DNA of 20,298 nucleotides from a virus: IMG/VR virus record IMGVR_UViG_3300013004_000239, positions 1 to 20,298 of that record. One strand, written 5' to 3'. The position numbers and the translations under genes are program-made. Shown piece by piece: positions 3,050 to 19,701 of the stretch. The notes below the pieces were generated by a model. It searched no databases, was not told the DNA's origin, and was given only the letters and a program-made list of their open reading frames with translations. Positions within the stretch are counted from its first letter, which is position 1. Every line of letters begins with the position of its first letter.

Positions 3050-6000
3050 TGGCTAACGATTACAGATTATTACTTGCAGTTCGAGAAGGTCTTGGAACGA
3101 TTACCGTTAACGGCGTTGCTCCTTTAGAATTCTATACAGAAGGCGATTCGCTTACAATTGCAGTTGCACCCGAGTCGGGTTATCATACGGCTATGTGGTA
3201 TAGCTCTCCAGGCAATACTTTCTTGTCTTCTAGCTTGTCTTTTAGCTACACCATGCCGAGTGAGGATGTTAAAGCATACGTTGTTTTAACAGGACAAAAC
3301 GCGCCTGTAAATGATTACGGACTAAAATATGAGGGGGGGTATGCGACCAACTACGGCGGCAATGTTTGGAACTTGCAAATTTTCAGAACTGGCTATTCAG
3401 GAGCGGTTACACCTTTGCTGATTAACGACATCACCTACAATTGGGGTAATACAGGAAACGACCCATTAGAGACAATAATTGGCTCCTCGGTTGACTTTAC
3501 AATCGCTGGCGAAACTGGAGATTTTAACGAGTTTCTTGTTGGTGGCAATCGAACTTGGAGAGTTGCGTTAAATCAAGTTAGCGCAAACAACGATATTACT
3601 GATTGGCAAGCCGCTTCTCCAACTGGAGGTTTTAGAGGCATGGCTTATGGAAATGGGTTTTTTGTTGGTGTTTTTGCAAATGTGCAATATTCTTCGGATG
3701 GAATTACTTGGACAAGTGGCGGTTATTTAGGTGCTGAACACGTTACTTATGGAAATGGTCAATTTGTAGCCATTGGTTTTGTAATTGCTTCAGGAGTTCC
3801 AACATCATATATTAATACCTCACCAGATGGAATAACATGGACAAGCAGAACTCCTAGTGAGGTAATGACTTTTCAAGATATTTCATTTGGAAATGGATTA
3901 TATGTTGCGGTTGCTAGTACTGGAACTAATCGTATAATGACATCACCAAATGGAATTACTTGGACATCAAGAACAACAAGTATAAATCCATCATTTAGCG
4001 GTGTTGCTTATGGTAATGGAATTTGGGTCTCGGTTTGTAGCGCATCTTCAGGAGGGACAACTTTTACTTCTTATGATGGTTTAAATTGGGATGAGCAAGC
4101 AACAGTTTTTAACTCTACGACAATTTTTTTTGCAGATGGTAAATTTACTACTGGCTCAAGATATTCAGTTGATGGATTAACTTGGATAAGTAATTCAATA
4201 CCATTTTCTCCAGAGTCAATAGCTTATGGAAACGGATATTTTGTTGCAACTAGAAGTAGTGGAACTAACCGAATAGCTTACTCTACAAACGCAATAAATT
4301 GGACTGCAATACCAGCGGCTTCAGTTGCTACTTTTGAATCGATTGCGTTTGGAAATAATACCTTTGTAATTGGAGCAACAAGTGGAACAAGTAAAATTAA
4401 TTACTTAGAATTTGAAGGCGTTCAATCTTTCTTTAGCGGATACATAGCACCTGACTTTATTACATCTCCCTATAAGAGTGGGCCAAAGCTTTTCTCTTTT
4501 ACTGCGGTTGATGGATTGAAAGGATTTGATTCAATACGCTCAAACTTTACCTCTTGGCCTGATCCAAGAACTCAAGCCTTATCGGCAGTTGTTGGTGCTT
4601 TAAATCAATCTTTTGTTGAGCAAAGACCTGTCTTTATTGGTTGCGAAATCCACGAGGCTAGAATGGATTATGACGAAAGCGTTTTCCGTCAATTTAATGT
4701 GCCACAAAATGCAATATTTACCGATGGACTAGACGCTAAATTTAGCAACGGAGTAAGGATTGAAAACGAGCAACTTTACCTAAAGAACACAATCGAGAGA
4801 ATGGTTAACCCTTTCCTTTGTCGCGTGTTTTTGTGGAAAAATCAATTTTACGTTGTAAGATTGACCGAGTTAGGCAAGTTATCTTACAAGATGTACGAAT
4901 TTTTGCCCGACCTAAGTTTAACGGCAACAAGTACAATTGTAAACGGCGACGACTTAAACGCCGATATTAACTCTCCTGAAGAAACCGCTAGAAGAGTATT
5001 TACAGAATTTAACTCTTATTTAAATCTAGGTGTATTAGACGTATATAGCCAGGGAGGAGTATTTGACGCTAAATTTGGGATTGAGGAGTGGAATTTAAAC
5101 GGAGTTGGCTCAACTTACGACGGCATTTACCAATTAAAGCTTTGGGATTATCACATGGCAATCCCAACTAACCAGCCGTCAAGCGTGCCAAGTGGAAATA
5201 CGGCCTTAGTGCAGTACGTTTCAGGGGGGGGGGAGTATGTACAAATATGGACAACAACCACAACCGATGGAATAGACGACCCGAACTTGTCTTGGATTTC
5301 GGCAAGCACAAACACAACTGGAGGAGCAATTACAATTGCAGAGGAGACGGCCAACACTATTTCTTTGACCTTTCAATACATGGTCGAAAGAGTAAGCACG
5401 AGTTACGCGGTTACTCCAGCGGCTCACGCCGTTGGCCTTATGATTAAAATAGGCAATCAATACTTGTCAAGAACTGGAGCAACAACCTTTGCTTGGACTG
5501 CTACAAGTACGGTAATGGAATTTACGGTTACGGCTGGCTCTGTTTGGAATCCCATTGCAATAAACAACGTATTAGTCCCAGTTGACGGGGAGGTTGAAAT
5601 TAGATTGCATCAACTAATCTGTAATGGAGGAACGGCTAACAGATACGTTGTAAGGTATGAAAACCTTTCGCTAAAGATTGAGAAAACAGATGGCTTATCT
5701 TTGTCAAAGTTAGGAGTTAAAGCGGTTACTGGCTCACCTTATGCCAACGTGCATCCCGATTACAATACATACATTGGCGACGCAATTACGAGCAACTCAG
5801 TTTCGGCTATTCGATTGCTAGATTTTGGTAATGCAGTTTCTACGGATTGGACTAGAGATGGAGTTGAAGAGTTACCTTTGCTAGACATAATCGTGCAAGA
5901 ATTAGCTAACTTGAAAGGCCGAACGAATTACAGAGTTTTAGCAACCATTGAGCGAAGACCAATAGACCCTTTTAGAAGTTTCTTGTTTAACGGACGATAT

Positions 6001-13698: not shown

Positions 13699-14250
13699 AT
13701 GGAAAAATCACAGAGTATCACAAACCTAACGCAAGGCTTAGCCAAGTTCCATGCCATGGTTGGGAAAATTAGCAAAGACGCTAAGAATCCGTTTTTTAAG
13801 TCCAATTATGCCAGCTTGCCTCACATTATTACAGAGGTTAGCGAACCGCTCGAAAAGGCTGGTTTAATCCTTAGCCAGTTTCCAAACGGCGACGGTCTTA
13901 CCACAATGCTAATACACGCCGAGAGTGGCGAGTACATTTCGGCAACTTACACGCTCCAGGTAGTGAGACAAAACGACCCACAAGCGCAAGGCTCGGCAAT
14001 TAGTTACGCTCGTAGATATGCAATTACAAGCATTCTAAACCTAGCAATTAGCGACGATGACGGAGAGGCTGCAACACGACCAGTACGCCAGGCTCCAGCG
14101 GTTACAAAAACCAAACCGACCGACGAGCAATTTGCCTACATCGTTAGATATCTAAACGGAACGGATGCACAAAAAAAGCAAGCCAAAGAGGCTTTGAGTA
14201 AATACATTTTAACACAAGACCAACAAGACACCTTAGACGGATTATTATGA
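13699..14250 (+). CDS. erf: ERF family single-strand annealing protein
   Basis: A 183-residue recombinase that should bind single-stranded DNA and anneal complementary strands during phage recombination and replication. The ERF core is clear: KDAKNPFFKSNYASLPHI (about 26-43), the EPLEKAGLILSQ segment (49-60), and the signature GSAISYARRYAITSILNL at 98-115, followed by DDDGEAA. The C-terminus (TDEQFAYIVRYLNG...) is a short helical part. It is ATGA-coupled to the Gp157-like gene, a common pairing in phage recombination modules. Confidence 0.92.
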   Translation: MEKSQSITNLTQGLAKFHAMVGKISKDAKNPFFKSNYASLPHIITEVSEPLEKAGLILSQFPNGDGLTTMLIHAESGEYISATYTLQVVRQNDPQAQGSAISYARRYAITSILNLAISDDDGEAATRPVRQAPAVTKTKPTDEQFAYIVRYLNGTDAQKKQAKEALSKYILTQDQQDTLDGLL

Positions 14251-16073: not shown

Positions 16074-16435
16074 CACGAGAGGAAATAATAATAGAACTCA
16101 ACCACAGAGCAACCCAAAAGTATTTGGTATACTTGGCCCTCCAGGAAATCATGCTGGATTATTACGAGGACATTACGATGTTAAAAGCCTTTGACGGCGA
16201 TTTAAAAACCAAACACAAAAACATGATTAACGCGCTAAAAAGAAAGTCAACCGAGGCGTTTAGATTCTTGGAGAATTACGATGGAGGAGAGGCTACAATT
16301 AAGCAGTTTCACGAGTTTGTGACCTTGTTTGAAAAGCTGCATCATTCCATTGACAAGGGCGGCTCTTTGTTTCACGATTGCCTAAATGCTATAGAACTAA
16401 TCTTAAATAATAATGAGACACAGAAACCTAACTGA
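16070..16435 (+). CDS. Helical early protein, function unknown
   Basis: A 121-residue protein from ATG 16070, in an ATGA overlap with the previous stop. An ATG-less extension to 16037 would run into that gene and is rejected. It is almost entirely helical, with four or more predicted helices and many Glu, Lys, His and Phe. The end (LNNNETQKPN) overlaps the next small gene by 23 bases. No motif recognised. Confidence 0.7.
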   Translation: MTREEIIIELNHRATQKYLVYLALQEIMLDYYEDITMLKAFDGDLKTKHKNMINALKRKSTEAFRFLENYDGGEATIKQFHEFVTLFEKLHHSIDKGGSLFHDCLNAIELILNNNETQKPN

Positions 16436-16562
16436 ATACGAAAAGCAGCTAATTTTTGAAAAATGGCAAGACCGTACACCTACAAAGGTAATTGCCTTGG
16501 AAATGGGTGTAAGTTATATGTGCATTTATTACCAACTAAAGAAGCGTAACTTGGTTGGTTAA
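16413..16562 (+). CDS. 49-residue HTH-like protein
   Basis: ATG 16413 to TAA 16560-16562 encodes 49 residues: LTEYEKQLIFEKWQDRT, then PTKVIALEMGVSYMCIYYQLKKR. The second part has the spacing of a helix-turn-helix (KVIALEMGVS-x-CIYYQL). It overlaps the previous gene by 23 bases and its last codons contain the -33 box of the promoter for the structured RNA. A small DNA-binding role is likely from the HTH pattern. Confidence 0.6.
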   Translation: MRHRNLTEYEKQLIFEKWQDRTPTKVIALEMGVSYMCIYYQLKKRNLVG

Positions 16563-16582
16563 ATCCAAAATGTTTATATTTG
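16555..16582 (+). promoter_or_regulatory. Bacteroidota-type promoter before a structured RNA
   Basis: TTG 16555-16557, exactly 17 nt, then TATATTTG 16575-16582. This is identical in layout to the promoters at 129-156 and 19722-19749. With the usual 6-8 nt spacing, transcription should start at about 16588-16590, exactly at the foot of the first RNA hairpin (16591). Confidence 0.8.
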
Positions 16583-16588
16583 TGTATT

Positions 16589-16680
16589 AAATGAGAGATT
16601 TAAGAGGTCGGAGCCTTAAATCTTTCATAGGTGAAATTCACCCAAGGCCCATCGACTCCGACACGATAGGGCCTTTTTTA
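16589..16680 (+). ncRNA. Structured RNA with three hairpins and a predicted kissing loop
   Basis: Three hairpins follow each other. H1 pairs 16591-16604 with 16615-16628 (14 bp, one G-U) around a 10-nt loop. H2 pairs GGTG 16630-16633 with CACC 16639-16642. H3 pairs AAGGCCC 16644-16650 and ATCG 16651-16654 with CGAT 16664-16667 and GGGCCTT 16669-16675, one bulged A, followed by a T run: an intrinsic terminator. The H1 loop contains GTCGGAG (16607-16613) and the H3 loop CTCCGAC (16656-16662), a perfect 7-bp match. The RNA would be about 90 nt. It may be a free small RNA or an attenuator leader for the replication gene at 16689. A 33-codon frame also runs through it (see findings). Confidence 0.7.
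16644..16680 (+). terminator. Intrinsic terminator forming the third hairpin of the RNA
   Basis: An 11-bp stem (one bulged base at 16668) with 9-nt loop, followed by six T at 16674-16679, ends just 9 bases before the ATG at 16689. Transcripts of the replication gene must read through it or start elsewhere. Confidence 0.75.
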
Positions 16681-16688
16681 TTTTACTT

Positions 16689-17399
16689 ATGAGCGGATGG
16701 ATTAAGGTACACAGGCAATTATCAAACCATTGGATTTGGGATAAACCCGAATATTTAAAATGGTGGTTGGACATTTTGATGCAAGCCAACATCGAACCAA
16801 AGAAGGTTTTAATTAAAAACCAGCTTATAGAAATCAACCGAGGCGAGGTTGTTTATTCTTACGAAACCTGGGCAAATAGATGGAAAATTAACAAATCTAA
16901 AGTTTTGAGGTTTTTAAAAATGCTTGAGAAAGATTCAATGATTGTGTTAAAAAGCGAAACGGTTACGACACGGATAACTATCTGTAAATATGATACTTAC
17001 CAAGGTGAGCGAAACGATAGTGAAACGCAAGTGAAACGCACACGAAACGCAAGTGAAACGCAAGTGAAACCAACTAAAGAAGTAAAAGAATTAGATAAGG
17101 AAATAAGTAAAGAAATGTTTATCTCTTTGGATGAGATTACGCAAGAGATGGCAAAGGAAAAGCCAATGCAAAGACCTTACTTTTTAAGGATGCAAGAAAT
17201 ACACGGAATAAGTGAAAGCCATGTAAAAGACTATTTCACTAAATGGAAAATATTAAAGGAAGGAGAAGCAATGACAATAAGCAAAGCTCAGAACTCATTT
17301 AACCTTTACTTAAAAAATAGTTTATCCAGCAATCAAGGCACAAAAGAAAATGAGCCTCCTAAATACGCTAAATCAACAATAAAAGACAACTGGTGGTAA
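16689..17399 (+). CDS. Replication initiator-like protein (winged-helix N-terminus)
   Basis: A 236-residue protein. Residues about 1-105 (SGWIKVHRQLSNHWIW, LDILMQANIEPKKV, GEVVYSYETWANRWKINKSKVLRFLKMLEKDSMI) look like the winged-helix N-terminal domain of phage replication proteins of the lambda O / DnaD type. A charged linker at about 108-130 is encoded by the iterons at 17011-17071. The C-terminal domain (PYFLRMQEIHGISESHVKDYF ... AQNSFNLYLKN) is helical and probably contacts the helicase encoded next door, as O and DnaD-type proteins do. The gene starts directly after a terminator hairpin and shares ATGA with the short frame that overlaps the RNA. Confidence 0.75.
   Translation: MSGWIKVHRQLSNHWIWDKPEYLKWWLDILMQANIEPKKVLIKNQLIEINRGEVVYSYETWANRWKINKSKVLRFLKMLEKDSMIVLKSETVTTRITICKYDTYQGERNDSETQVKRTRNASETQVKPTKEVKELDKEISKEMFISLDEITQEMAKEKPMQRPYFLRMQEIHGISESHVKDYFTKWKILKEGEAMTISKAQNSFNLYLKNSLSSNQGTKENEPPKYAKSTIKDNWW
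17011..17071 (+). repeat. Six iterons of GAAACG at exact 11-nt spacing, candidate replication origin
   Basis: GAAACG starts at 17011, 17022, 17033, 17044 and 17055, and GAAACC at 17066. Five intervals are all 11 nt, one helical turn. The consensus unit is GTGAAACGCAA. Because 11 is not a multiple of 3, the frame rotates, and the protein shows an 11-residue repeat (RN-SETQVK). The array lies within the gene for the probable initiator, in the linker, as in lambda ori within gene O. Confidence 0.7.
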
Positions 17400-19213: not shown

Positions 19214-19363
19214 ATGAAAAAAAATGATTTGTACGCAATCTTTGTGGCGCTTGTAGGGATTACCCTACTGGCGTTGCTAAAGGTTTCTAGTTTGCTGCTT
19301 TTTGTAGTGGCTTTGGCTTTGTGGACTTTGGCTTGGTCTTGGATTTACAAAAAATGTAAATGA
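19214..19363 (+). CDS. 49-residue two-span membrane protein
   Basis: ATG 19214, directly after the stop of the previous gene, to TGA 19361-19363, in an ATGA overlap with the RusA-like gene. The product has a short polar start (MKKNDLY), two hydrophobic spans (FVALVGITLLALL and LLLFVVALALWTLAW) and a basic end (YKKCK). Tight coupling on both sides supports a real gene. Role unknown; a small early membrane protein could be a superinfection-exclusion factor (speculation). Confidence 0.6.
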   Translation: MKKNDLYAIFVALVGITLLALLKVSSLLLFVVALALWTLAWSWIYKKCK

Positions 19364-19701
19364 TTCAATTTAAGATAAACGAAAAGCCTTTGAGTGTTAA
19401 TTTAGCTTGGCAAGGCAAACGTTTTAAAACGCCAGCTTACAAAGAATACGAAAAAGCAATGCTCTTGCGTATGCCAGCGTCAAAGGTGGACACAAGCCAA
19501 ATGTTAAGGGTTGAGTTTTTTTTTGGCTTTAGCAACAAAGCTTCTGACCTTGACAATCCCGTAAAGTTATTATTGGATTTGGCTCAGAAAAAATACGGCT
19601 TTAATGATTCGAATGTTTACGAGTTAAACGTCCGCAAATGCATTGTCAAAAAAGGAGATGAGTTTATACAGATGGGGATTTATAATTTATTGCCGTTTTA
19701 A
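19360..19701 (+). CDS. rusA: RusA-like Holliday junction resolvase
   Basis: A 113-residue endonuclease that should resolve four-way DNA junctions. The metal-binding core is D63-x-D65-N66-P-x-K69 and D73, then D83 (GFNDSNVYELNVRK) and K93, as in RusA. The protein has usual RusA length (about 110-120). It should work with ERF-mediated annealing on branched replication DNA. It is the last gene of the replication operon, with an ATGA overlap to the membrane protein. Confidence 0.88.
   Translation: MIQFKINEKPLSVNLAWQGKRFKTPAYKEYEKAMLLRMPASKVDTSQMLRVEFFFGFSNKASDLDNPVKLLLDLAQKKYGFNDSNVYELNVRKCIVKKGDEFIQMGIYNLLPF

Follow-up and report, generated by a model that had tools for sequence, protein, structure and literature searches.

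A kissing-loop RNA before phage replication genes that is probably a new kind of replication switch

Purine riboswitches are leader RNAs that reach a compact fold through an intramolecular loop-loop contact. The put RNAs of phage HK022 are two-hairpin phage RNAs located right behind an early promoter, where they suppress termination, and type III toxin-antitoxin systems follow the order promoter, structured RNA, terminator, gene. The rep-leader attenuators of the pT181/pIP501 type, which serve in plasmid copy control, have a structured leader, an intrinsic terminator just before the replication-initiator gene and a specificity that is borne by loops. In pT181 a kissing hairpin interaction governs the terminator ahead of the replication gene (PMC3753616).

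The phage RNA analysed here is like the pT181/pIP501 leaders in these traits of layout and specificity. It is located in the window, the whole stretch of DNA that was analysed, which is an IMG/VR virus contig of 20,298 bases from a Bacteroidota phage. The initial annotation of this contig had proposed a new-looking three-hairpin RNA with its own promoter and a kissing contact between two loops, acting either as a free small RNA on host or phage mRNAs or as a switch for the replication gene behind it. The same design, with loops that change together, was found in more than 100 other phage sequences before replication and DNA-processing genes. The module is widespread, exists in at least three architectures and is not peculiar to this phage. 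The kissing-loop RNA is probably a new kind of phage replication switch.

Organization of the RNA locus in the window

All features of the locus are on the + strand. The promoter has a -33 element TTG (16555..16557) separated by a 17-nt spacer from a -7 element TATATTTG (16575..16582), both identified by sequence reading and the latter also by the family-wide promoter motif. The promoter is of the Bacteroidota type by its consensus. The MFE fold of positions 16589-16680 consists of exactly three hairpins (-35.8 kcal/mol). Hairpin H1 (16591..16628) has a 7-nt loop formed by GUCGGAG alone (kissing sequence 1, 16607..16613) and a 14-bp stem with one extra closing pair beyond a bulged A, a correction to the initial annotation. 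The predicted small hairpin H2 (16630..16642) is not conserved. Hairpin H3 (16644..16675) is the stem of an intrinsic terminator and runs into a U-run (T6, 16674..16679); its loop ACUCCGACA (16655-16663) includes kissing sequence 2, CUCCGAC (16656..16662), the perfect complement of the H1 loop. Pairing of the two sequences as an isolated duplex of 7 bp is calculated at about -10.7 kcal/mol. Apart from the closing pair of H1, sequence reading and the MFE fold agree with the promoter, H1, H2 and terminator H3 as they had been described.

Complementarity of the two loops at seven of seven positions, which had been said to be hard to explain by chance, is indeed no coincidence, as shown by the relatives presented in the next section. 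A wider segment folds better than each of 200 dinucleotide-shuffled versions (z -5.8), and the 7-mer GTCGGAG is confined in the window to the two loops, with one occurrence per strand. A purpose-built detector, which searches for a hairpin loop complementary to the loop of a downstream terminator, gave a score of 31.5 for the window and 28.5 for the best of 300 dinucleotide-shuffled windows; it is unspecific at lower scores, a value of at least 20 being reached in 61 of the 300 shuffled windows.

The gene behind the RNA (16689..17399) codes for a DnaD-like helicase loader of 236 aa (phrog_2514, E 1.9e-32) and its ATG lies about 10 nt past the U-run. Upstream of the RNA, a gene read from the sequence (16413..16562) codes for a small protein of 49 aa that looks helix-turn-helix-like by eye; the tested part, 16437-16562, had no family match. 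The end of this gene is also recognisable in the closest relatives of the locus (group A, see below). Note that the same early gene cluster of the window codes for an Erf-family single-strand annealing protein (13699-14250) and a RusA-like Holliday junction resolvase (19360-19701).

Relatives, architectures and pairing of the two loops

A search with the loader protein yielded 63 viral loci, of which about 34 have the RNA immediately upstream of the loader gene. In L023 and L036 the RNA is found roughly 450-540 nt further upstream with another gene inserted. The loops of these group A relatives are GUCGGAG, GUCGCAG, GUAGGAG, GUGGAAG, GUGAGAG and GUGGUAG, and the terminator loop carries the exact complement in every case. 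The statistics of the group A loops were anchored on the loops themselves because a MAFFT alignment of all sequences put the terminator and the loops in the wrong place. All seven kissing pairs are kept in 24 sequences (168/168), a count that is partly obtained by construction since loop 3 was located via its complement. Kissing positions 3, 4 and 5 covary in these 24 sequences, with 3, 2 and 4 pair types, respectively.

The subtype to which the window belongs (10 sequences) could be followed through the whole structure. H1 is paired in 99.3% of cells with three doubly changed pairs, H3 in 100% with two and the kissing helix in 100% with one, while sliding the partners by one column lowers overall pairing from 94% to about 45%. 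The compensating changes anticipated by the initial annotation for H1, H3 and the kissing pairs are therefore present in relatives, and the segment does not vary without them. Only 57% of the H2 cells are paired in this subtype, and H2 is absent from the B and C relatives presented below. The conserved core is for this reason defined as two hairpins plus the kissing helix: the three hairpins first described are found in the fold of the window, and H2 is dispensable.

Loaders that are 46-57% identical to that of the window are preceded by RNAs of other sequence that follow the same plan. These B and C types have no detectable sequence similarity to the window RNA and precede related genes. The B type features a short H1, an A/U-rich linker and a terminator with an AGUA/GAA internal loop. 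The C type features a pyrimidine-rich loop 1 followed by AUUAUA, and a terminator with AAUGAAGUAG...CUACGGAUU. The conserved unpaired elements, namely the B-type AGUA/GAA internal loop, the C-type GAA/GGA internal loop with AUUAUA in the loop, and the A/U-rich linker, would suit an RNA that binds a phage or host protein (e.g., RNA polymerase, an RNase or a ribosomal protein) by its three-dimensional shape, the kissing contact serving only to build this shape and gene control being secondary. This explanation is improbable in our view: the elements are absent from group A, and the types swap before related genes, a pattern not to be expected if a single protein were dedicated to binding the RNA.

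IMG/VR was scanned with patterns of the terminator core only, yielding 93 B and 81 C stretches, a few of the C pattern matches being coding false positives. For each terminator loop, the longest complementary stretch in the sequence upstream of it was then compared with that found in members carrying different loops. These terminators were collected blind to loop 1, and it is this comparison, not the group A count of 168/168, that is the unbiased test of the kissing contact. A partner of at least 6 nt was present in the own upstream sequence for 114 of 115 terminators, against 5% (B) and 8% (C) of foreign partners; foreign partners of at least 8 nt were found in 0 of 756 comparisons for the C type. 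The sole exception among the 115 is a C-type RNA (L326:800-881) whose loop 1, GGTCTGAC, mismatches its terminator loop GTGAGAG; L326 is possibly a recombinant or an assembly chimera.

The kissing helix shows 98.8% pairing in an alignment of 20 C-type sequences, and six of its eight pairs have double changes. The values for the whole structure were reached by 0 of 500 shuffles, and a slide of one column reduces overall pairing from 96% to 46%. Compensatory changes thus affect the helices, kissing helix included, as selection on the RNA would produce. The C-type helices have 37 G-U pairs versus 5 A-C mismatches when read on the + strand, and it follows that selection acts on the + strand RNA. 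The initial view, that of a new-looking structured RNA transcribed from a promoter of its own and having a genuine kissing contact, is supported.

These data also bear on the reading of the segment as a DNA-level element (a replication origin or protein-binding palindromes) or as a small coding sequence, with an incidental RNA fold. The segment does adjoin replication genes, and in the window it holds a frame of 33 codons (16591-16692) that begins with ATG 16591 and whose end overlaps the rep gene in an ATGA. Such a reading is nevertheless very improbable considering the G-U pairs kept and the A-C mismatches rare on one strand, the covariation of the kissing pairs, the conserved promoter and U-run, and the presence of the module also before endonuclease and antirepressor genes. 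A coding origin of the segment was rejected: the frame is open in several close relatives and broken in L022 and in the A2-type. It is probably incidental, judging from these comparisons.

The model of the C type does not recover group A and, consequently, no common descent is claimed for A and B/C. They are equivalent by position and plan. Further variants are suggested by eye in L113, L118, L131 and L146. In L113 and L118 a fourth architecture combines a GAAG-CGTAGGAAA-CTTC hairpin with an AAAGGT...ACCTTT terminator and the kissing sequences CGTAGGA/TCCTACG, about 300-400 nt upstream of the rep gene.

Gene context and proposed mode of action

In 94 of 104 members the motif TAnnTT(T/C)(G/A) lies 2-42 nt ahead of loop 1; control segments taken 100 nt upstream contain it in 6 of 104 cases. 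The terminator lies 5-35 nt before the ATG of an open frame in 108 of 113 cases, compared with 132 of 1011 other terminator-like sites of the same contigs located within 40 nt of a start, although closeness to start codons could partly reflect packing, phage genomes being compact. The genes behind the RNA are mutually non-homologous and mostly have replication or endonuclease functions. They code for DnaD-like loaders, DUF6291/Phg_2220_C proteins, a BT4734-like primase, an HTH_36 replication protein, a DNA methyltransferase, a DUF4326 protein, NUMOD4-HNH endonucleases and small proteins.

One and the same B RNA sequence is found before unrelated replication genes. Conversely, rep proteins 85-90% identical to that of L043 (~128 residues) are encoded behind B- or C-type RNAs. 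Some phage contigs carry two RNAs with different loops, often B plus C, before different genes (L041:1258-1337 and 4701-4784; also L180, L183, L191, L196, L202, L214, L237 and L242). From these three observations the RNA is viewed as an interchangeable cassette, apparently working in cis on whichever gene follows. NUMOD4-HNH genes are found repeatedly 7-9 nt after a B-type RNA with GUUACGG-like loops (L041:4784, L183, L189, L201; also L219, L225, L238, L242), as if they travelled together. The first gene behind C-type RNAs (L042, L059, L113, L281 and others) codes for rapidly varying proteins of 55-70 aa. Several of them have a carboxyl-terminal motif like LYDLIGALHxxQ and one shows a weak match to the T4 y05I carboxyl-terminal domain.

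Two carriers are cultured flavobacterial phages. In Tenacibaculum phage Gundel_1 the RNA precedes gp064, annotated as antirepressor. In Croceibacter phage P2559S, where the RNA spans about 33910-33997 of NC_018276, the annotated start of gp48 (L353:13956-14195 = NC_018276.1:33955-34194) falls inside the RNA, and the true start is likely ATG 34000 in the same frame. The window segment had no DNA match in isolated phages and the C-type query found no plasmid. The B pattern and the C model, which both recover known viral contigs as positive controls, had no match in 396 Bacteroidota genomes, a scan with stricter filters than the controls and one genome per species that could miss rare prophages. 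The RNA appears, from this limited sampling, to be a trait of mostly virulent flavobacterial phages.

Since the promoter sets the transcription start at H1, the RNA forms the 5' leader of the following gene. A second promoter would not fit between the U-run and the ATG, so the gene needs read-through, whether this originates at the present promoter or in genes further upstream, and the terminator is therefore a control point. The layout is that of an attenuator, with a promoter and a structured leader before the gene and an intrinsic terminator before the start codon. Sequence comparison establishes the two hairpins, the kissing helix, the position of the promoter, the terminator and its place before the start codon. 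The kissing contact with the terminator loop is the one feature retained through all sequence change. We estimate at roughly 0.55 the probability that the RNA is a cis-acting transcription attenuator leader of early phage genes, above all of replication-initiation genes. The switch for the replication gene that had been envisaged initially fits the family-wide layout, in which promoter, RNA and terminator are followed a few nt later by the start codon.

In the proposed mechanism transcription would start at the base of H1 and the nascent RNA would fold H1. The loop of the intrinsic terminator would then pair with the H1 loop over 6-9 bp, generating a compact kissing complex that sets terminator behaviour. 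We infer that termination is conditional and that the kissing contact stabilises the terminator. The majority of transcripts would end after ~90 nt, and the read-through fraction would provide the helicase-loader mRNA. Some factor (protein, RNA or ribosome) would relieve termination at the right time. No alternative antiterminator structure was found in the sequence, and the switch itself is therefore invisible in it.

Part of the B type has an additional element. Among 50 B-type members, 21 have a complete third copy of loop 1 that occupies the ribosome-binding position, after the terminator and ahead of the start codon. It matches the own loop each time (GTTGCAG, GTGCAG, AGGCAG, CAGCAC; e.g., L043, L052, L041, L099 and L191, with AGGCAG cases added by L099, L103 and L104) and covaries with the kissing loops; controls had no copy of at least 6 nt in about 375 comparisons. 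In the B-type subgroup the terminator loop may pair with the third copy over the ribosome-binding region instead of with the H1 loop, which would add a translational arm to the control. Neither group A (0 of 23 members) nor group C (0 of 32) has the copy at this place, and the translational arm is accordingly not general.

The third copy is also the strongest evidence for the main rival of the attenuator, a trans-acting phage small RNA. In the terminated ~90-nt RNA, the terminator loop would serve as antisense seed while the H1 loop would be a built-in lock or RNase shield, and in the B subgroup the RNA would target the ribosome-binding region of the replication gene as a dosage-dependent brake like that of plasmid copy-number control. 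Nearly all members have their own promoter and terminator, and the pairs of RNAs with differing loops in some phages would suit such a role. We consider it rather unlikely, given the lack of the copy in groups A and C, the absence of a consistent third loop copy at other places of those group A contigs that were read, and a targeting loop that is already paired within the molecule. The version of this idea put forward initially, a free RNA acting on host mRNAs, is disfavoured further by the free variation of the loops, which need only match one another.

Returning to the attenuator, a broader proposal can be made tentatively, short of favouring it. Self-kissing attenuators may constitute a new class of exchangeable promoter-RNA-terminator cassettes placed before early replication and endonuclease genes of Bacteroidota phages. 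They would be defined by obligatory pairing of the terminator loop with the loop of an upstream hairpin and would use different loop pairs within one phage. Some terminator loops would switch to the ribosome-binding region, so that one 7-nt sequence controls termination and translation.

Comparison with known RNA families and systems

Rfam 15 has no family above the gathering threshold for the window RNA and 20 relatives, using curated and permissive thresholds, in agreement with the initial opinion that the RNA matches no known family. The best sub-threshold match was the trpB motif, with 23.3 of 59 bits. The RT-14 RNA (RF02921) matched L043 below threshold (26.5 bits versus a gathering value of 48.1) over positions 90-144 of 144 only. 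The AGUA/GAA internal loop of its last hairpin is that of the B-type terminators, but its loop is aaaa and has no kissing partner, and the window is unmatched. No description of such a kissing-loop phage leader was found in the open literature. A bulk catalogue of predicted structured RNAs of viruses and phages by Fremin, Bhatt and Kyrpides reportedly exists and could include such sequences as anonymous motifs. We know of no description of an intrinsic terminator with a loop for which pairing with a hairpin upstream is obligatory.

Bacteroidota phages are abundant in freshwater, sea and gut, and the timing of their genes is little known. The cassette precedes replication initiators that belong to several unrelated protein families, and it offers a direct handle on replication timing. 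With an obligatorily paired terminator loop, the known rules for terminators and attenuators would be extended, and RNA engineering would gain natural orthogonal loop pairs.

Type III toxin-antitoxin systems were considered and rejected: the phage leader has no repeat units, and the genes downstream are non-homologous replication and endonuclease genes, with no toxin among them. The HK022 put RNAs, unlike the phage leader, have neither a terminator nor kissing loops. Compared with the purine riboswitch, the phage RNA has no ligand-binding junction, one of its partners is the terminator loop, and its loops vary with compensation. In the pT181/pIP501 attenuators the partner loop is found on a separate antisense RNA, whereas the phage RNA unites both loops in a single transcript, with the loop of the terminator as one of the two partners.
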